Shown here piece by piece: positions 16,054 through 46,324 of a DNA stretch of 46,324 bases; position 1 is the first letter of the stretch, and each line of letters opens with the position of its first letter. The DNA lies in IMG/VR virus record IMGVR_UViG_3300005578_000002, positions 1-46,324 of that record; one strand, written 5' to 3'. The position numbers and the translations under genes are program-made. The stretch comes from a virus. A model generated the notes under the pieces. The model was not told where the DNA came from. It searched no databases and saw only the letters and a program-made list of their open reading frames with translations.

Positions 16054-16215
16054 GTGGTCACGATGACCGAACAGCAGGGCCGGCCCGTCAGCCGCTCCGA
16101 CTGGGAGGCCGCCCTGCGCGGATTCCTGATCCAGGCCGACGCCGACCGTGAACTCCTCGAGCCGCCGGCCGCCGAGGATTCCCCGGTGCGGCGCCGGCCG
16201 CGGGTCCGCAGCTGA
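16054..16215 (+). CDS. Small plus-strand gene (53 aa)
   Basis: GTG at 16054 with GGAGGG four bases upstream, or ATG at 16063 (MTEQQGRPVSRSDWEAALRG). The product is acidic and helical (DWEAALRGFLIQADADRELL) with a basic end (RRRPRVRS). It occupies a stretch empty on the minus strand, has its own divergent upstream region, and ends 17 bp before a strong terminator, all of which support a real gene. Among very few plus-strand genes, it could be a regulator. No family recognised. Confidence 0.65.
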   Translation: MVTMTEQQGRPVSRSDWEAALRGFLIQADADRELLEPPAAEDSPVRRRPRVRS

Positions 16216-16231: not shown

Positions 16232-16279
16232 CGCGCGGCCCGCCGCCTCAACCGGGGGGTATTGGGGGCGGGCCGCGCG
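16232..16279. terminator. Bidirectional terminator between convergent genes
   Basis: 13-bp perfect arms (CGCGCGGCCCGCC and complement) with a 22-base loop, between the plus-strand gene ending at 16215 and the minus-strand lectin gene ending at 16301. No U-tract on either side, as usual in high-GC actinobacteria. Confidence 0.75.
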
Positions 16280-16300: not shown

Positions 16301-16810
16301 TCAAGCGCCGTTGCCGAACGATGCGAGGCGCAGCCAGTTCGTCGTGCTGTAGCCGCCCCACAACGACCAGTGCCCGTCGCCGCCCATCGTGATCCGGTAC
16401 CAGTAGAAGTGGCCGGTGTTGGTGTTCGACGCCCACAGCGCCCGCTGCCCCAGGAAATCATGCTGCGGCCCGTCGTCGTAGATGACGATGTTGCCGTCGG
16501 TCTGCAGCCGCAGCTCCTTGCCGGTGCTCGCCGTGGCTGACTGGAACCACATCACCCCGGCGCTGTCGTAACCGGCGAAGTTGCCGGACCGACCGAACCC
16601 GAGATGATCACGCCCATTGACGGAGTACAGGTCGAACTCACCCGGATAGAAACTGCAGTTGCCGTTGCAGGAGCTGTTCGAGCCGAAGACATACATCGTC
16701 GGGCTGGTCGGATACGTCGCCGCGGCCGGCGGCGCGCTGGCCAACCCAGCGAGCAGCAGCAGCCCAGCCAGCAGGGCCAGCAGCTTCGAACGGTGCAACC
16801 ATCTGAACAT
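16301..16810 (-). CDS. Secreted B-type (bulb) lectin domain protein
   Basis: 169 aa. ATG at 16810 with AGGAGGG upstream. Residues 1-31 are a signal peptide: basic start (MFRWLHRSK), hydrophobic core (LLALLAGLLLLAGLA), cleavage near ASAPPAAA. The mature part has the mannose-binding signature QTDGNIVIYD (residues 103-112; pattern Q-D-N-V-Y) and a second, degenerate repeat (MGGDGHWSLWGGY). Cys48 and Cys52 could form a disulphide. B-lectin domains bind mannose-type glycans; bacterial forms include lectin-like bacteriocins and adhesins. It is not among structural genes and is isolated by a terminator, so a moron-type role (cell-surface change, exclusion or antagonism) is plausible. Secretion and fold are well supported; purpose is not. 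Confidence 0.85.
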   Translation of the reverse strand: MFRWLHRSKLLALLAGLLLLAGLASAPPAAATYPTSPTMYVFGSNSSCNGNCSFYPGEFDLYSVNGRDHLGFGRSGNFAGYDSAGVMWFQSATASTGKELRLQTDGNIVIYDDGPQHDFLGQRALWASNTNTGHFYWYRITMGGDGHWSLWGGYSTTNWLRLASFGNGA

Positions 16811-16863
16811 GGGATGGAACCCTCCTCTTGGTTGGGTGGGGTGCACTGGGGGACCGCAGGGGC

Positions 16864-17052
16864 TCAGAACGGCGGCGGGCTCAGCACGCCCGTCACCAAC
16901 ATCGGCGCCGCAGGCCGGGCCAGCGAACGCAGCTCGATGTGCTCAGGCATCTGCAGCGTCCGCAGCTCGATCTCCTGCACCGTCTCGTCGGCCATCGCGT
17001 CGGCCAGCTCCAGCCAAGCCTCCGACCCACGCCGAATCCTCACGTCAGCCAT
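16864..17052 (-). CDS. Hypothetical protein (62 aa)
   Basis: MADVRIRRGSEAWLELADAM, then an acidic helix and a hydrophobic end. Its ATG overlaps the previous stop by eight bases. Resembles small phage proteins with no known role. Sits 54 bp before the lectin start. Confidence 0.6.
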   Translation of the reverse strand: MADVRIRRGSEAWLELADAMADETVQEIELRTLQMPEHIELRSLARPAAPMLVTGVLSPPPF

Positions 17053-17212
17053 GCGCGTCCACCCCCGCCGCTTCGAGTAGTGCCCAGCCGAGCTCGGCTG
17101 CGGCGTCCTTGTCCATCCGCAGCTCGCCGCGCCCGAACGCGAGCAGCACCCGCCCTTGACCGTCCCGGCTGACCGTCGGCTGATCGGTCGGCTCGAACCT
17201 AGGTTCGGTCAC
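17045..17212 (-). CDS. Hypothetical protein (55 aa)
   Basis: GTG coupled by GTGA. Begins VTEPRFEPTDQPTVSRDGQG, then RVLLAFGRGELRMDKDAAAELGWALLEAAG: a short strand pair and helix. No family recognised. Confidence 0.6.
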   Translation of the reverse strand: MTEPRFEPTDQPTVSRDGQGRVLLAFGRGELRMDKDAAAELGWALLEAAGVDAHG

Positions 17213-17448
17213 GGTGCCTCTCTAACCGACGCACTGGCCAGCCTGCGCGTCAGCGGCGTCGTGAGCCGGCCAGGATCGCCGTCTACGGGCTGCCACGGCT
17301 CGGTCGTCAGGAACCCCCAGCCCTCAAGCCACGCCTCGGCAGCGGGCAAGTTCGCCGTGTTGTCGTCCCGGATCAGCGCCACCCCGGAAGCCAGCGAGTG
17401 CGCGTGGATCGTCACCCGCCGGTCCGGCTCGCTCCACACCGCGAACAT
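17209..17448 (-). CDS. Hypothetical protein (79 aa)
   Basis: MFAVWSEPDRRVTIHAHSLA..., strand-rich start, then NLPAAEAWLEGWGFLTTEPW. TGATG overlap with the preceding gene. No family recognised. Confidence 0.6.
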   Translation of the reverse strand: MFAVWSEPDRRVTIHAHSLASGVALIRDDNTANLPAAEAWLEGWGFLTTEPWQPVDGDPGRLTTPLTRRLASASVREAP

Positions 17449-17624
17449 CAGCGGGCCTCCAGATGCTCGACCTCGACCAGAGCCCAGGCCGCGATGGGCA
17501 GGTCGAAGATCGACCGTGCGTGCCGGATCGGGGACCGGACGCAAGGCTTATCGCCGATGTGCTCCTCGCGTGCCGAGCCGCAGAAGCAGAACCCGTCAGG
17601 ATGCGGCGTGGGCTGCGCGGCCAT
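17448..17624 (-). CDS. Cysteine-containing small protein (58 aa)
   Basis: MAAQPTPHPDGFCFCGSARE then HIGDKPCVRSP: C-x-C plus a third Cys and nearby His, a possible metal site. ATGA overlap with the gene before. No family recognised. Confidence 0.6.
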   Translation of the reverse strand: MAAQPTPHPDGFCFCGSAREEHIGDKPCVRSPIRHARSIFDLPIAAWALVEVEHLEAR

Positions 17625-17828: not shown

Positions 17829-18476
17829 CTAGATCAGGTCCAGTGCCTTCGCTGCCCGCTCCACGTCATCCCACGGCCCGCGCTGGCCGTTGTTCCGGTC
17901 CGGGTGGGTCTGGATGCGGGCCAGCTTCAGCAGCGCCGGCCCGGACACCCACTCGGCGCTCCCCGGTTCCGCGCCGGCGTGGATGCGGAGCACGTTCCAG
18001 GCCTGCTCCGCGGTCAGCCTCACCGTGGCCGCCTCCAACTGCCGGTAGCCCCGGTACTGCTCGCCGTGGCCGCTGGCGCCGTACCGGTCCACCGCCCGCA
18101 GCGCCTCCAAGGTCAGCGCGATCGCCCGGACGTTGTGCTGCCACGGCTGCATCGCGTTGCGGTACTCCGGCCCGGCGAAGTACCGGTCGCAGTGGTAGAT
18201 CATCGGGCCGTGGATCGACTCGAACGCGACCCGCACCGCCGGGCTGGCCGCGCGGGCGTCCGCACGCAGGCCGCCGTCGATCCGCAGGTCCCGCTCGCTC
18301 ACGTCGACCTCGATCACCGGGTCCGGCATGCTGCGGGTCTGCAGCTTGAGCACCTCGCCGATCAGCAGGTCCAGCGTCGAGGACCATTTCGAGGTGAAGC
18401 TGGACCGGGCGCGCTGATCGTGGGCGCGTAGCCAGGTCCGGTCGGACAGCGGTCGGGTGGTGTACTGCGCAGCCAT
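17829..18476 (-). CDS. J-domain-like (DnaJ-type) phage protein
   Basis: 215 aa. The C-terminus reads LLKLARIQTHPDRNNGQRGP then WDDVERAAKAL: the HPD tripeptide and following helix of a J domain, which stimulates Hsp70 (DnaK). The upstream 180 residues are unfamiliar and helical. J-like proteins of this size are common in Streptomyces-type phages; whether this truncated J module still works with host DnaK is unknown. It begins 12 bp after a CCTGGCAG leader with GAGGAG. Confidence 0.7.
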   Translation of the reverse strand: MAAQYTTRPLSDRTWLRAHDQRARSSFTSKWSSTLDLLIGEVLKLQTRSMPDPVIEVDVSERDLRIDGGLRADARAASPAVRVAFESIHGPMIYHCDRYFAGPEYRNAMQPWQHNVRAIALTLEALRAVDRYGASGHGEQYRGYRQLEAATVRLTAEQAWNVLRIHAGAEPGSAEWVSGPALLKLARIQTHPDRNNGQRGPWDDVERAAKALDLI

Positions 18477-18568: not shown

Positions 18569-18937
18569 CTACTCGCCGCCGTCGCCGGGCGCAGTCACCG
18601 ACGACACCCGCACCTTCACGATGTGCCGCTGATGATCGTCTGCCATCACCTTGTCGCCGACCTCGACCACCTTGCCCCGGACGACGAACTCGACTAGGTC
18701 GCCAAGCTTGTAGTCGCCGTCGTTGGTCCGGTAGCCCATCCCCAGGAACGACAGGTGGGTGTTGTACTCCATGCCCGGCAGGGCCTCGGTCACCCCGCCC
18801 TGCTCCTCGGTCACCGCCCCCAATCCGGCGGCGGCCACCTCGCCCAGGTTGACCGGCTCCCGCTCCGGGTCGTAGTAGTCCTCGTCAGCCGCCGGGTCGT
18901 TCGGCTGCCCGTCGTCTTGCTTGCCTCGCGCCATCAT
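18569..18937 (-). CDS. Hypothetical acidic protein with a beta C-terminal half
   Basis: 122 aa from the ATG at 18937 (GTG at 18943 possible). Low-complexity acidic start (ADEDYYDPEREP) then KLGDLVEFVVRGKVVEVGDK and HIVKVRVSSV, a small beta-barrel-like end. Resembles phage proteins of unknown role found next to HNH or replication genes. Terminator hairpin follows. Confidence 0.7.
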   Translation of the reverse strand: MMARGKQDDGQPNDPAADEDYYDPEREPVNLGEVAAAGLGAVTEEQGGVTEALPGMEYNTHLSFLGMGYRTNDGDYKLGDLVEFVVRGKVVEVGDKVMADDHQRHIVKVRVSSVTAPGDGGE

Positions 18938-18949
18938 CCTCACCCTTCC

Positions 18950-19471
18950 CTAACTCACGCCGGCCATCGGCGCGAAGTGTCGCATGCCCCTGCCGTACGG
19001 CAGACCGGCATCGTCCCACGCAACCCAGCCCACCTCGGCCAGAAACGCCACCTGATCCGGATCCAGCCACCCGAACCGGATCAACAACCTCGACTCGGTT
19101 TTCGCTTGGTGGTGGGTAGCGCAGAACACCAGCCCGTTCTCCACCACCGATGGGCCGCCCTGACCTCGCGGCTTGATGTGATCGACCTCAAGCGGCTCGT
19201 ACGGCTTCGTCGCCACTCCAGCCGACATGCAGGCCCGGCAGTATGCGCCGCGCGCGTCTAGGCACTCGGCGCGCCATGGTGCATCGTTACGCCTGGGCTT
19301 CCGGTTTCCGGCCTTCATTCGCGGCGCCGTTTTGTCAGCTGCCCGGTCCACAGGCCGCTCCACAGGCTGTGTAAGACGCTCCCGGCGCCGTGCTGAGTAG
19401 CGTGCTGCGCCGCGCTGCTGCCACGCCCGCGTCTTCGCACGGTCGGCCTGCAGCGGCTTCCTACGCTCCAC
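18950..19471 (-). CDS. HNH endonuclease
   Basis: 173 aa. The HNH fold is visible: CRACMSAG, then EVDHIKPRGQGGPSVVENGL (DH first metal/catalytic pair), then FCATHHQAKT (Asn and His residues). The zinc-ribbon cysteines flank it. The N-terminus is very basic (ADRAKTRAWQQRGAARYSAR), as in DNA-binding extensions. It is far from the terminase, so a role in host DNA breakdown or as a free-standing homing endonuclease is more likely than packaging. GTG start. Confidence 0.85.
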   Translation of the reverse strand: MERRKPLQADRAKTRAWQQRGAARYSARRRERLTQPVERPVDRAADKTAPRMKAGNRKPRRNDAPWRAECLDARGAYCRACMSAGVATKPYEPLEVDHIKPRGQGGPSVVENGLVFCATHHQAKTESRLLIRFGWLDPDQVAFLAEVGWVAWDDAGLPYGRGMRHFAPMAGVS

Positions 19472-30986: not shown

Positions 30987-31333
30987 TGGTCCTCCGGGGT
31001 TGAGGGTGCGCTACCGACATATGCATCGGTCAGCCAGTCCGGCAGCGGCACCATCGGCACCGTCTGCCCGACGAGCGCATGCGTGCAATCGGCCAAGAAC
31101 TGCCATTGCCCGCCGCGCACGTAGCAGTGGCAGTGCTTCGCCCCGGGCTGGTCGCCGTACCAGGTGTCGATCGACTGTGGAATGGTCGGCGCGGCTTCGT
31201 TGCCGTCCCATGTCCAGCCGTTCGGCGCGTCGATGACGATCCGGTGGGCGTCGTCGCAGCCGGGGCACCAGAGCCAGAGCGACCGACCGGGCGCGGTGCC
31301 GTTGCCGCCGATGCGTAGGACCGGCGCGGTCAC
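30983..31333 (-). CDS. Putative zinc-binding tail-region protein (DUF6527-like)
   Basis: 116 aa. LWLWCPGCDDAHRIVIDAPN, then CHCYVRGGQWQFLADCTHAL and VGQTVPMVPLPDWL. The CPGC pair and the HCHC..G.W.FL.DC.HAL.GQTV pattern are those of a family of small phage proteins in fibre operons (DUF6527-type, role unknown). GTG coupled by GTGA. Confidence 0.6.
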   Translation of the reverse strand: MTAPVLRIGGNGTAPGRSLWLWCPGCDDAHRIVIDAPNGWTWDGNEAAPTIPQSIDTWYGDQPGAKHCHCYVRGGQWQFLADCTHALVGQTVPMVPLPDWLTDAYVGSAPSTPEDQ

Positions 31334-32610
31334 GCGACGGCCGGGATGAGCTCGAATTCGAGGGCGTTGAAGCTGGTGACGTTGGCCAGCGACGCGGCGG
31401 GGACGGTGAAGGTGAGCTTGGCGACCATGCTCGAGCCGGCGGTTTCCACGGCCAGGGTTTGCGCGGCGAGCACCGCCCGCACATTGGTGCCTTCCCAGAC
31501 CTTCAGTTGCTCGGTGCCGGTGCCGCCGGTGACGCTGGTCTCCACCTGCACGGTCATGTCGGTGCCGGCCGCAGGGGTGACCAGCGCACCCATCCGGAAC
31601 CGGGCCGAGCCGGTCCCGACGAGGTACGTGGCCGGGTCGGTGTCGCTGACCGCGGTGAGGGCGTTGCCGCCGGCCCCGGTGACGGCGTAGCCGGGGGCGG
31701 AGACGACGGCGACCGGGACGGCGGTGGCGGCTGGGGCGGCGACGGTGACCGTCTGGCTGGTGGTGCCGGTGTCGCCGGAGTCGTAGGTGGCGGTCAGGGT
31801 GACCGTCTTCGACCCGGCCGAGCCGTAGGTGTGAGAAGGGCTGACGCCGGTGCCGGTCTGCCCGTCGCCGAAGTCCCAAGCGTAGGAGACGACGGTGTCA
31901 CCGCCGGCCAGGTTCGACCCGGACGCGTCGAAGGCCACCGTCTGCCCGGTCGGCGAGGCGGTGAACACCGGGCCGATCGCAAAGGCGCAGGTGACCTCGC
32001 CGGTGGCGATCGTGGCGTCCATCGTCCAGGACGGCCCGGTCGCGCCAGCAGCGTCGGCGATCGCGTAGGCCGAGGCGAACATCGAGGTGGTGCCGCGGGT
32101 GACCCGGTTCACGGTGGTGAAGACGCTGCCGACCAGGTGCTCCTGCTGCGTGGAGGCGACGGTGGCCTGGTAGGCGATGATGCCGAACACGAGATCGTCG
32201 ATCGCCGCGACGGCGGTTGCTGCAGGCGGGGTGGTCGAGCCGGAGTTGGCTCGGGACCCGGTGTCACGCAGCGTGACCGGCTTGTCGGCGGTGAACTCGG
32301 CGACCACCCCGGCGACGTTGATCGACGTGGAGCCGTTGTGCACGGTGACGCCGGTGATCCCGGCCGGACCGGGCTGCGCCCACCAGATCTCGCCGTGCCG
32401 CTGCGATACGCCCGGCTGGGTGAGCGGGGCCATGGCGTAGGAGTTGCCCGCCGAGTCGGTCACCGACGGGATCACGCCGGAGGCGAGTTGCGCGGAGAAC
32501 GCGGCGACGATCAGCGAGTTGGCGAGGGTGGCCGGCAGCGCCGCCGAGGCCACGTCGGCGCCGAAGTTGTTGATCGCCGCGATGTTGCGGGGCGCTGAGA
32601 ATCCGCTCAT
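31330..32610 (-). CDS. PKD-domain minor tail protein
   Basis: 426 aa from the ATG at 32610 (ATGA). Two beta domains flank one PKD module: GQTVAFDASGSNLAGGDTVV then YAWDFGDGQTGTG, SHTYGSAGSKTVTLTA. The YAWDFGDG signature is diagnostic. N-terminal MSGFSAPRNIAAINNFGADV... resembles tail-decoration domains; the C-terminus is a further Ig-like or sandwich domain. PKD modules in tails bind cell-wall or surface glycans. Confidence 0.8.
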   Translation of the reverse strand: MSGFSAPRNIAAINNFGADVASAALPATLANSLIVAAFSAQLASGVIPSVTDSAGNSYAMAPLTQPGVSQRHGEIWWAQPGPAGITGVTVHNGSTSINVAGVVAEFTADKPVTLRDTGSRANSGSTTPPAATAVAAIDDLVFGIIAYQATVASTQQEHLVGSVFTTVNRVTRGTTSMFASAYAIADAAGATGPSWTMDATIATGEVTCAFAIGPVFTASPTGQTVAFDASGSNLAGGDTVVSYAWDFGDGQTGTGVSPSHTYGSAGSKTVTLTATYDSGDTGTTSQTVTVAAPAATAVPVAVVSAPGYAVTGAGGNALTAVSDTDPATYLVGTGSARFRMGALVTPAAGTDMTVQVETSVTGGTGTEQLKVWEGTNVRAVLAAQTLAVETAGSSMVAKLTFTVPAASLANVTSFNALEFELIPAVA

Positions 32611-33890
32611 CCTGTGTACTTCCAGACTGTGTGTGAGTAGATCTCGAAGGTGTTGGGGAACACCGGGTGCAGGATCGGCTGGCCGGCGAAGCTGGTGTTG
32701 CACGAGTTCGGCGCGGTGCCGCCGCCGGAGATGCACGCGTTCAGCAGATGCGAGTAGCCGAGCGGGTCGTCCGGATGGCCAACGTACTTGCCGTCGATCT
32801 GGGAGCCCTGCAGGTAGATGTTCCAGAACCGGTTCACCGGGTCGGCCGGGTCACCGCCGTTGCTGGTCCAGAACAGCGCCTGGGTGTCGACGTAGTCGAA
32901 CACCTTCACCCCGTCGATGTAGGCCTGGATGCGCACGTTCGCCGAGGGCTGGTCCGGGTCGCCCGGGGTGGCGCCGGTGGCGTCGGTGACCGGGTAGACC
33001 TTGGTGCGGAACTTGTGCCGCCCGCCCGGGCTCGCGGTCGGGTGCTCGAAGAAGATTCCGCCGTAGCCGTCGGCCGATTTCGACTTGGCCACGTTGTACT
33101 GGGTGAGCAGGTTCCCGCTCGAGTCGCGGCCGGTGGCGCGGTGCAGGGTGATCAAGGCCCGGCCCGGCACTTGGGCGTGGAAGATCTCCATGTCGTCCAG
33201 CTCGACCATGCCCGCGCCGCCGGTGAAAGCCGTACCCCACCAGGCCTGCCAGATGCCCTGGCCGTGCGCGATCCGGGCTTCGATCTCCTTGCAGTGGTAG
33301 CGCGGCGCGTACCAGCCGGCCGTCTTGCTGTCGAGCATGCCAGCGGTGAAGGCGTTGCCGCCCACGGTCTCGCGTTTGCTGATCAGCTTCAGAGACAGCC
33401 CGTCGCCGTCGGACGCGGCCGAGACGACGGCGTTGCGGGCCATGTAGCGCTGGATCCGGTCCGGCGCGCCAAAGGTGGAGTTGTCATAGGCGTGCCAGCG
33501 GGCCGGGTCGAGGGTGGCGAACTCATCGGCCAGCAGCAGGGTGTAGCCGGGCAGGTCCGGGACCGGCTGCGGGGTCGGGCCGGGCGGGGTGGGCTGCACC
33601 CAGGCGCTGCCGTTCCAGACCGTGCGGGGGCTGGCCGTGCCGACCGTTGCCGGGCCGGTCCACACCTTCCGGTTGCCGGGCCGGACGAACTTCCCGCCGA
33701 GCCAGTACAGGCTGCCCGGCGGTGTCGTCGCGGCCGGCGTGACGCTGGCGGTGATCCGGCCGATGCGGGCCTTGGCCGACCCGGCCGAGGCGGGGGTGAC
33801 GGTCGCGGTGATCCGGCCGATCCGGGCCTGCGCGGCGGTCTGCGGGGTGACCGCGGCCGTGATCCGGCCGATCCGGGCCTGCGCGGCCAC
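32607..33890 (-). CDS. Tail-associated glycoside hydrolase (GH16-like)
   Basis: 427 aa. The C-terminal 300 residues form a concanavalin-A-like sandwich: YTLLLADEFATLDPARWHAY, then MVELDDMEIFHA with the GH16 catalytic ExDxxE pattern (E230, D232, E235). GH16 enzymes cut beta-1,3/1,4-glucans or galactans, so this may degrade capsule or wall polysaccharide at adsorption. Residues 3-51 contain three tandem ARIGRITAxVTP units, then a Trp/Pro-rich linker. GTG start one base after the previous stop. Only two of several usual GH16 motifs are evident, so fold is likely and substrate unknown. Confidence 0.75.
   Translation of the reverse strand: MAAQARIGRITAAVTPQTAAQARIGRITATVTPASAGSAKARIGRITASVTPAATTPPGSLYWLGGKFVRPGNRKVWTGPATVGTASPRTVWNGSAWVQPTPPGPTPQPVPDLPGYTLLLADEFATLDPARWHAYDNSTFGAPDRIQRYMARNAVVSAASDGDGLSLKLISKRETVGGNAFTAGMLDSKTAGWYAPRYHCKEIEARIAHGQGIWQAWWGTAFTGGAGMVELDDMEIFHAQVPGRALITLHRATGRDSSGNLLTQYNVAKSKSADGYGGIFFEHPTASPGGRHKFRTKVYPVTDATGATPGDPDQPSANVRIQAYIDGVKVFDYVDTQALFWTSNGGDPADPVNRFWNIYLQGSQIDGKYVGHPDDPLGYSHLLNACISGGGTAPNSCNTSFAGQPILHPVFPNTFEIYSHTVWKYTG
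33738..33884 (-). repeat. Triple coding repeat (ARIGRITA-VTP)
   Basis: Three tandem copies of a 16-20-codon unit at the start of the glycosidase gene, with near-identical DNA around GATCCGGCCGAT. Likely expands or contracts by slippage. Confidence 0.85.
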
Positions 33891-34625: not shown

Positions 34626-35039
34626 TCAGCCACCGTCCGCCGAGGGTGCCGCATGCTGCGCCTTCCACTGGACCGCGCCCGGCTGGGCGGCGGTGTTCGG
34701 GTCGAGGTCCGACGGCAACACCCCCGGGGCGGGAGTGAACCCGAGGCTGGTGATGACCGGGGTGCCGTCCGGGGTCGGCGCGTAGACCACCGGCTGCCGG
34801 GTTGCCCCGAACAGCAACGACGCGGCCGGCCAGCGCTTCTCCAGAGCATGCCCGACGGCGAAGTACAGCGCGGTCAGCACCACCGTCAGAGCCGCCACCA
34901 GCTTCTCCTTGGTCGCCGCCGAGGCATCGGTGTAGCCCAGCAGCACGAGCACCGGATGAGCCAGCGGCAGGGACAGCAGCCAGCCGGCCAGCAGCGCGGC
35001 CAGGGTGCGGATGAGCGCCGTTACATAGTTCGACAACAT
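34626..35039 (-). CDS. Putative holin
   Basis: 137 aa with two hydrophobic helices: LIRTLAALLAGWLLSLPLAH and KLVAALTVVLTALYFAVGHA, with a charged loop between and a long polar C-terminus ending HAAPSADGG. It overlaps the endolysin stop by TGATG. Two-helix membrane proteins right after an endolysin gene are normally holins, which time lysis by making membrane holes. Confidence 0.75.
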   Translation of the reverse strand: MLSNYVTALIRTLAALLAGWLLSLPLAHPVLVLLGYTDASAATKEKLVAALTVVLTALYFAVGHALEKRWPAASLLFGATRQPVVYAPTPDGTPVITSLGFTPAPGVLPSDLDPNTAAQPGAVQWKAQHAAPSADGG

Positions 35040-35791
35040 CAGAGCGTCGCCTTGCCCTTCATGTAGGCGTTGTAGATCAGCTGCATGCCGGCGTTGGACA
35101 CGTCCTCCACCTTGTTACCGGCGCACAGCGGGTCCTTGCGGAAATACTCGACGATCGCCTCAGTCTCCTTGGGCGTCGAGCCCTCCAGTGCCGACCAGAC
35201 CCCCGGCATGACGAGCCGGTAGGCGTTGGTCTGGACGTTGTGGATGATGCGGAACATGCGACCTCCCGAGACCACGGGCGGCGGTATCTTCACCCCGCCG
35301 CTGGAACTGGACGATTCGCCGGACAGTGGCCACGGCTCGGTCGAGTTGAACCCTGCCGGGTTGCGGCTGACGCTGATGTGCACGTGGTAGAGGTGCGGGT
35401 CGTCGCCGGCGTACGGCTTCGTGCCGCCCGGATTGGCCGGGTCGGTGATGCGGGCCCTGAATATGGCGTAGCCGTCCGGCCACACCCGCGGGTCCTTCAG
35501 CGCGAACATGCGATTGACCATCGCCGCCAGCTCGGCGCCTGGTGGCCCGTCCGTCACCGTAACAATGCCGGGAACGCCAGAGACATTCACCGCCACGTCC
35601 AGCGCTCGAACAGTACTGTCGAGCCAAGGATTGTGATCGCTGGACGGCTCCCGCCGGTGCGCCCGGTCGCCGATCGTACCGGTCTGCGGCGAGTTGACCC
35701 AGCCCTGTCCTGGGTAGGCCGCCTGGAGCTGGTGCAGCAGTGTCAACAGCGCCGGTGCGAGCCGATCGCCGTCGCCGCCGGTCCAGACCAT
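35039..35791 (-). CDS. Endolysin (M15-like D-Ala-D-Ala / peptidoglycan peptidase)
   Basis: 250 aa. Zinc-peptidase motifs: HRREPSSDHNPWLDSTVRAL (SxHxxx and ALDVAV with the Asp) and DPHLYHVHISV (HxH). These match the M15/VanY-like lysins of actinophages, which cut peptidoglycan cross-links. A Ser-rich linker (GESSSSSGG) leads to a C-terminal domain (MFRIIHNVQTNAYRLVMPGV...), perhaps a wall-binding or oligomerisation unit. Not followed by a lysin B gene. Confidence 0.85.
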   Translation of the reverse strand: MVWTGGDGDRLAPALLTLLHQLQAAYPGQGWVNSPQTGTIGDRAHRREPSSDHNPWLDSTVRALDVAVNVSGVPGIVTVTDGPPGAELAAMVNRMFALKDPRVWPDGYAIFRARITDPANPGGTKPYAGDDPHLYHVHISVSRNPAGFNSTEPWPLSGESSSSSGGVKIPPPVVSGGRMFRIIHNVQTNAYRLVMPGVWSALEGSTPKETEAIVEYFRKDPLCAGNKVEDVSNAGMQLIYNAYMKGKATL

Positions 35792-45863: not shown

Positions 45864-46304
45864 CTAGTCGGTACGGTGCGTGCTGGGCCAGGCGACCCGC
45901 GCGTAGTAAGTGCTGGCGTGCTGGGCACGCTCGTTCTGATCCGGCCTCAGGTCGTTGTCGGCCTGCTGCCACATGGTCACGACCCAGATGCCGCCGACCA
46001 TGATGTCGGTGAGGCCGTGCAGCACGTCGAAGATCGCCGCGGCCCGGTCCAGCACCGGCCGCGGGTCGGTCCCGCCGCGCAGGTGCAGCCGCCAGCCGAT
46101 CGTGGAATCCGCTAAGGCCGGGTCGTGCCCGACCGCGTACGGGAACCCGGCGATCACATCGTCCGGCTGGTCCGGCAGCACCCCGACCATATGCCCGACC
46201 TGCCCGGCCGAGTAGATGCCGTCGGGGTCCCAGACGCCGATCCCGGCGCCGGCGAGCAGCACCGCGCCGCCGGTGGCGAAATCGGTCAACGGACTGTCGG
46301 TCAC
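45864..46304 (-). CDS. Tail terminator / minor capsid-type protein
   Basis: 146 aa. GTG at 46304 (identical to position 60 in the left repeat), overlapping the gp10-like stop. GYSAGQVGHMVGVLPDQPDDV-type beta segments and STIGWRLHLRGGTDPRPVLD then VLHGLTDIMVGGIWVVTMWQ, which is the layout of tail-terminator proteins that end the tube. Position between gp10-like and major tail protein agrees. Confidence 0.75.
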   Translation of the reverse strand: MTDSPLTDFATGGAVLLAGAGIGVWDPDGIYSAGQVGHMVGVLPDQPDDVIAGFPYAVGHDPALADSTIGWRLHLRGGTDPRPVLDRAAAIFDVLHGLTDIMVGGIWVVTMWQQADNDLRPDQNERAQHASTYYARVAWPSTHRTD

Positions 46305-46324
46305 CGGCCGCCGCCCAGCGCCGC
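46245..46324. repeat. Right copy of the 80-bp terminal direct repeat
   Basis: Identical to positions 1-80. Trimming one copy gives a 46,244-bp circle in which the gene starting at 46304 overlaps the stop of the gene ending at 57 by the usual GTGA. Confidence 0.95.

Follow-up and report, generated by a model that had tools for sequence, protein, structure and literature searches.

A divergent bulb-type lectin with a predicted signal peptide in a probably virulent actinophage

Secreted proteins with a single bulb-type lectin (B-lectin) domain, the mono-B-lectins, have been reported in Streptomyces, Kitasatospora and Streptacidiphilus (PMC6465234). They are chromosomally encoded, about 170 aa long, consist of a signal peptide and one B-lectin domain with no extension, and usually carry three intact sugar-site motifs. 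A mannose-binding beta-prism II lectin, MSMEG_3662 (4OIT), is known from M. smegmatis (PMC8875947). It is also chromosomal, is fused to a LysM domain and forms a domain-swapped dimer. The mannose lectins of monocots and fungi (GAFP-1/gastrodianin, the garlic and snowdrop agglutinins, the Marasmius oreades lectin) tend to retain several of their mannose sites and often form dimers or tetramers. B-lectin domains are also found in the bacteriocins LlpA and LlpB (putidacin L1, pyocin L1), which are sometimes carried by prophages and whose killing activity has been shown chiefly in Pseudomonas. LlpA consists of two B-lectin domains in tandem; LlpB has one domain followed by a basic/aromatic C-terminal extension of about 32 aa. 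The B-lectin domains of phage tails (gpL-like and others) are parts of large structural proteins that lack signal peptides, and most of the phages concerned look proteobacterial.

The gene described here is part of a viral contig of 46,324 nucleotides (IMG/VR record IMGVR_UViG_3300005578_000002), the whole of which was analysed and is called the window. Its product has the layout of the actinobacterial mono-B-lectins, a lone B-lectin domain behind a Sec signal predicted from hydropathy, but it is only about 22-25% identical to them, has one intact motif, is phage-borne and forms a separate long branch. It shares the beta-prism II fold, the QxDxNxVxY motif and a domain of about 110 residues with the monocot and fungal lectins, which differ from it in the number of intact sites. 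With MSMEG_3662 it has in common the fold and the actinobacterial setting; mannose binding is a feature of MSMEG_3662. With the tail domains it shares a B-lectin domain encoded by a phage. The new element is a strongly diverged member of this mono-B-lectin kind in a probably virulent actinophage; no report of a lectin secreted by an actinophage was found in the literature.

Three more specific identities were considered and not adopted. The second domain of LlpA is absent, and the protein scores 28 bits against the putidacin family NF033557, whose cut-off is 275. The C-terminal extension of LlpB is absent and a signal peptide is present. The UmbA subunit of umbrella toxins has an N-terminal trypsin-like domain, for which the protein has neither room nor a match. 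The kinship with LlpA-type bacteriocins suggested in a preliminary description of the locus was therefore not borne out.

The lectin: gene start, fold and sugar sites

The open reading frame comprises 169 codons of the minus strand, from the ATG at 16808-16810 to the stop at 16301-16303 (Table 1). GAGGAGGG 9 nt upstream secures its start, as does a related contig that is arranged in the same way, with AGGAGGG in the equivalent place. The ribosome site is thus strong; a sigma-70-like promoter of the gene's own was sought and none was found. The protein begins with MFRWLHRSKLLALLAGLLLLAGLASAPPAAA, in which an n-region containing R, HR and K, a hydrophobic core of 17 residues and AxA-type sites can be recognized by eye. 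The most hydrophobic stretch has a 12-residue mean hydropathy of 2.95, and the signal peptide is nearly identical in the relative. These features point to export through Sec, and a conserved pair of cysteines (CNGNC) suits an extracytoplasmic protein.

Table 1. Features of the lectin locus and of the likely lysis genes; positions refer to the window unless the related contig piece L002 is named
Feature	Position	Strand	Basis
B-lectin gene, 169 aa	16301..16810 (incl. stop codon)	-	ORF, homology, model, homologue in the relative
Shine-Dalgarno GAGGAGGG, 9 nt before the lectin ATG	16820..16827	-	sequence
Predicted Sec signal peptide, about residues 1-32, cleavage position approximate	16715..16810	-	reading by eye, hydropathy
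Degenerate site 1, GRSGNFAGY, residues 73-81	16568..16594	-	A2: N and Y remain, Q and D are missing
Intact mannose-site motif QTDGNIVIY, residues 103-111 (site 2)	16478..16504	-	sequence, A2
Degenerate site 3, GGDGHWSLW, residues 143-151	16358..16384	-	A2: D remains; Q, N, V and Y are missing
GC-rich hairpin with convergent genes on either side, putative bidirectional terminator	16232..16279		folding compared with shuffles
Small convergent gene, 50 aa, possible alternative GTG start at 16054	16063..16215	+	82% identical in the related contig
Gene directly upstream of the lectin, same transcriptional run, 62 aa	16864..17052	-	56% identical in the relative
Lectin homologue, same syntenic place	L002 4938-5441		85% identical
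Putative holin	34626-35039		reading by eye
Lysin-like gene	35039-35791		reading by eye

The family was established in several ways. When the single sequence was compared with solved structures by phmmer, GAFP-1 was the best match (E=2.9e-6), followed by pyocin L2, garlic agglutinin, putidacin L1 and others. The Pfam B_lectin model PF01453 gave no match at E<=1. This threshold is not decisive because an ordinary Streptomyces mono-B-lectin (L189) also falls short of it, with 28.9 bits against a cut-off of 32.4; 70 of the 73 rows of the B-lectin alignment A2 match the model. Since PF01453 was silent, an independent profile was built from the sequences collected by two degenerate motif scans (at least about 240 viral and bacterial DNA stretches), with both phage lectins left out. 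The lectin of the window scored 45.0 bits and that of the relative 44.6; none of 2000 shuffles exceeded 6.8 bits, and reversing the sequence gave -0.1. By sequence, the homology of the 169-aa protein to B-lectins is beyond chance. Alignment to the family by hhalign gave 99.5%, with the query itself included in A2. The full protein received no assignment from Pfam, PHROGs or PADLOC, the only signal being PHROG 19296, of unknown function, at E=0.0015.

An AlphaFold model computed with 73 family sequences is nearly all-beta (pLDDT 76.8, pTM 0.72), with low confidence at the C-terminal end of the third repeat, whereas the two phage lectins alone gave an uninformative model (pLDDT 39). Foldseek matched the former to beta-prism II mannose lectins, best to 4tkc (E=3e-7, TM 0.67/0.77). 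The fold is supporting evidence that is not fully independent, since the modelling was guided by the B-lectin alignment. Sequence and model together identify the protein as a divergent single-domain bulb-type lectin of the beta-prism II fold, with one B-lectin domain in 137 mature residues that comes to within about 8 residues of the C-terminus.

The observation behind the preliminary description holds, and its interpretation is supported in part: the ends and strand of the frame are exact, the signal peptide and the QTDGNIVIYD signature are both present, the product is a phage-encoded bulb-type lectin, and the beta-prism that it proposed to look for by structure prediction appears in the alignment-guided model.

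All three repeats of the lectin can be aligned with the family in A2. The second contains the intact motif, which lines up with repeat 2 in 71 other B-lectin rows and reads QTDGNIVVY in the relative. QTDGNIVIYD fits QxDxNxVxY exactly, and the motif occurred in none of 200 shuffles of the window. The lectin therefore has, as judged from its sequence, one of three mannose-type sites intact and the other two degenerate. The lectin may bind a sugar; if it does, one site per chain is expected, and a higher valency would need oligomerisation. B-lectins can also bind rhamnose or protein in place of mannose.

Phage genome and divergence from the relative

The window encodes a terminase, portal, protease, capsid, tape measure and tail proteins and is siphophage-like; a DnaC-like loader, a RecB-like exonuclease and a DNA methyltransferase are also present. 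The terminase, portal, capsid and exonuclease show weak kinship (33-47%), mostly to phages of Gordonia, Arthrobacter and Mycobacterium, and the methyltransferase has closer kin (up to about 58%). The terminase pointed to no host genus. The genome is probably complete, either circularised or terminally redundant, because positions 1-80 are repeated exactly at 46245-46324. No integrase domain (tyrosine or serine) or resolvase domain was found in the 46.3-kb contig, and the phage is therefore probably virulent.

The lectin gene has the replication genes on one side and the terminase on the other, and belongs to the replication/accessory region. The tail genes (about 29.8-46.3 kb) and the likely lysis pair form another block about 18 kb away. 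This arrangement bears on the idea that the lectin is an accessory adhesin of the virion which helps the particle to bind host glycans. Among the matches listed, most B-lectin domains of viral contigs do belong to large phage proteins, gpL-like tail proteins among them; here, the gene has a signal peptide, lies outside the structural module and is neither fused to a tail protein nor adjacent to tail genes, and such a role is given a slim chance. In L014, L017-L019, L021 and similar viral contigs, B-lectin repeats are inserted in gpL-like minor tail proteins, which have a C-terminal CGKR...FGSFP motif. The tail region of the window contains two other minus-strand genes of note, one for a protein with a GH16/beta-1,3-glucanase-like domain (32607-33890; PDB matches at E=3.7e-6), perhaps a depolymerase and a second glycan-directed protein of the phage, and one for a PKD-domain protein in the tail/accessory region (31330-32736).

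As previously described, the lectin gene is the last of a minus-strand run and converges with a small gene ending at 16215, which is the only evident plus-strand gene of the region (16054/16063-16215). The 62-aa product of the gene preceding the lectin matched no family. The hairpin between the convergent genes has a 16-bp stem and z values of -4.6 and -3.4, and no shuffle folded as well on either strand. The same hairpin is found in the relative (L002 5466-5513), where one G-C pair is replaced by A-T in a compensatory change. It lacks a T-tract on either side, and the terminator scan did not call it. Of the bidirectional terminator claimed earlier, the strong and conserved hairpin stands; without a U-tract, the hairpin is a putative non-canonical bidirectional terminator at which transcription would end.

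The lectin gene is known in two copies, that of the window and that of a single relative in IMG/VR, contig IMGVR_UViG_3300044854_000033 (pieces L002, L003 and L005). The pair differs by a dN of 0.111 and a dS of 0.539 (dN/dS 0.21), as is characteristic of purifying selection. The upstream genes at 16864-17052, 17209-17451, 17829-18476 (where the value rests on a 21-residue match only), 18569-18943 and 18950-19471 also have a raised dS, 0.44-0.72, and the lectin therefore belongs to a block of older divergence, as opposed to being a single cassette gained recently. The movable cassette proposed earlier finds no support as far as one relative can tell, since the gene is in the same syntenic place and its neighbours have diverged to a matching degree. 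On the other side of the hairpin, dS is about 0.09 in the small gene (16063-16215) compared with 0.54 in the lectin (16304-16810), both from small samples; a mosaic junction at the hairpin is possible.

In a tree, the two phage lectins form a long branch of their own (2.36 changes per column) outside all sampled bacterial sequences, which argues against a recent capture. The position of this branch neither supports nor rejects descent from the actinobacterial secreted mono-B-lectins. The gene could be a captured host lectin that is now a passenger, in which the degeneration of two of three sites represents decay; secreted mono-B-lectins of this size, some 170 aa, are frequent in Streptomyces and its relatives (PMC6465234), and similar proteins were among the sequences collected here. 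Such an origin without a present role is very unlikely, given a dN/dS of 0.21 over a dS of 0.54, an intact start, ribosome site and sugar site, and the location of the phage pair outside the bacterial sequences.

Close relatives of the lectin were found neither in 84,980 genomes searched with peptide patterns, nor in plasmids, nor in the 397 Actinomycetota genomes, and the protein matched none of 50,697 phage records. Two consensus-like Streptomyces B-lectins, compared with the same records, detected four Pseudomonas phages only. Two of these four were inspected together with one near copy, and their genes are LlpA/pyocin-L-like, one of them shortened. The genes are annotated as hypothetical (L262 2515-3387 and L263 2926-3480; the phages include Pacha_bin_1, Hali and Riah, the copy of Riah being the shortened one), and a nearly identical copy of the Pacha gene is present in an IMG/VR contig (L059 484-1353). 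The other viral contigs found via the terminase had no match to PF01453, a model under which the lectin of the window also falls. At this sensitivity, few isolated phages and no isolated actinophages yield a B-lectin, consistent with the earlier remark that such a gene is unusual in an actinophage; one that had diverged as far as the lectin of the window could have escaped.

Possible role outside the cell

Actinobacteria mannosylate their surface proteins. Protein mannosylation by Pmt/Ppm1 is required for infection of S. coelicolor by phiC31, a phage believed to use a mannosylated glycoprotein as receptor (PMC5882110, PMC5982138). As the lone exported B-lectin of a probably virulent phage, the protein would have to exert its effect either on the outer side of the infected cell's membrane or once the cell has lysed. 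The preferred proposal, which is tentative and held with less than even confidence, is that it is a monovalent coat on mannose-type sugars of the host envelope. The infected actinobacterium would export the lectin through Sec, and the lectin would bind terminal mannose-type sugars of the host's own envelope, its best-supported target, the candidate ligands being O-mannosylated surface proteins or, where present, lipomannan-type glycans. As each chain has a single good site, the effect would be coating more than cross-linking. The coat would mask glycoprotein-type receptors needed by some actinophages, so that superinfecting phages would be kept out during infection, and/or released progeny would be kept from sticking to lysed debris. 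A block to superinfection had been among the functions suggested in the preliminary description. The two degenerate sites, the ability of B-lectins to bind ligands other than mannose and the existence of only two known copies of the gene count against this proposal. The full statement that the secreted monovalent lectin of a virulent actinophage masks mannosylated receptors, and from outside the membrane excludes competitors or protects progeny, is considered rather unlikely.

Monoderm actinobacteria have no BamA. This matters for a different function, in which the protein is an LlpB-like bacteriocin that is released from infected or lysed cells and kills or inhibits competing relatives. Single-domain B-lectins such as LlpB can be bactericidal, and some llpA and llpB genes belong to prophage or tailocin clusters (PMC6465234); genes of the LlpA/pyocin-L type are present on Pseudomonas phages as well. 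The killing target of LlpA, however, is BamA, a Gram-negative outer-membrane protein (PMC6465234), and a probably virulent phage has no lysogen that would gain from the death of rivals. Since the defining features of LlpA and LlpB are absent, with a signal peptide in place of the LlpB extension and a score far under the putidacin cut-off, a bacteriocin is improbable and a weaker explanation than the envelope coat.

Another function suggested by analogy is that of an envelope effector, which would bind mannoproteins or lipoglycans and change aggregation, or shield the cell from lectin-guided antagonists such as the umbrella toxins of Streptomyces. Lectin-guided toxins target actinobacterial surface glycans, the targeting lectins of UmbA include a bulb-lectin family, and the bulb-lectin domain of UmbA4 (9oee) matches the model. 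UmbA, however, needs the trypsin-like domain that the phage lectin lacks, and this purely analogical role is scarcely probable.

If the masking of receptors by an exported coat is correct, the lectin would represent a simple means of disabling a phage receptor from outside the cell after infection, and it would be a ready reagent for finding the surface mannoproteins that serve as phage receptors. To our knowledge, no lectin-like bacteriocin has come from an actinophage; should the lectin kill competitors instead, it would be the first.
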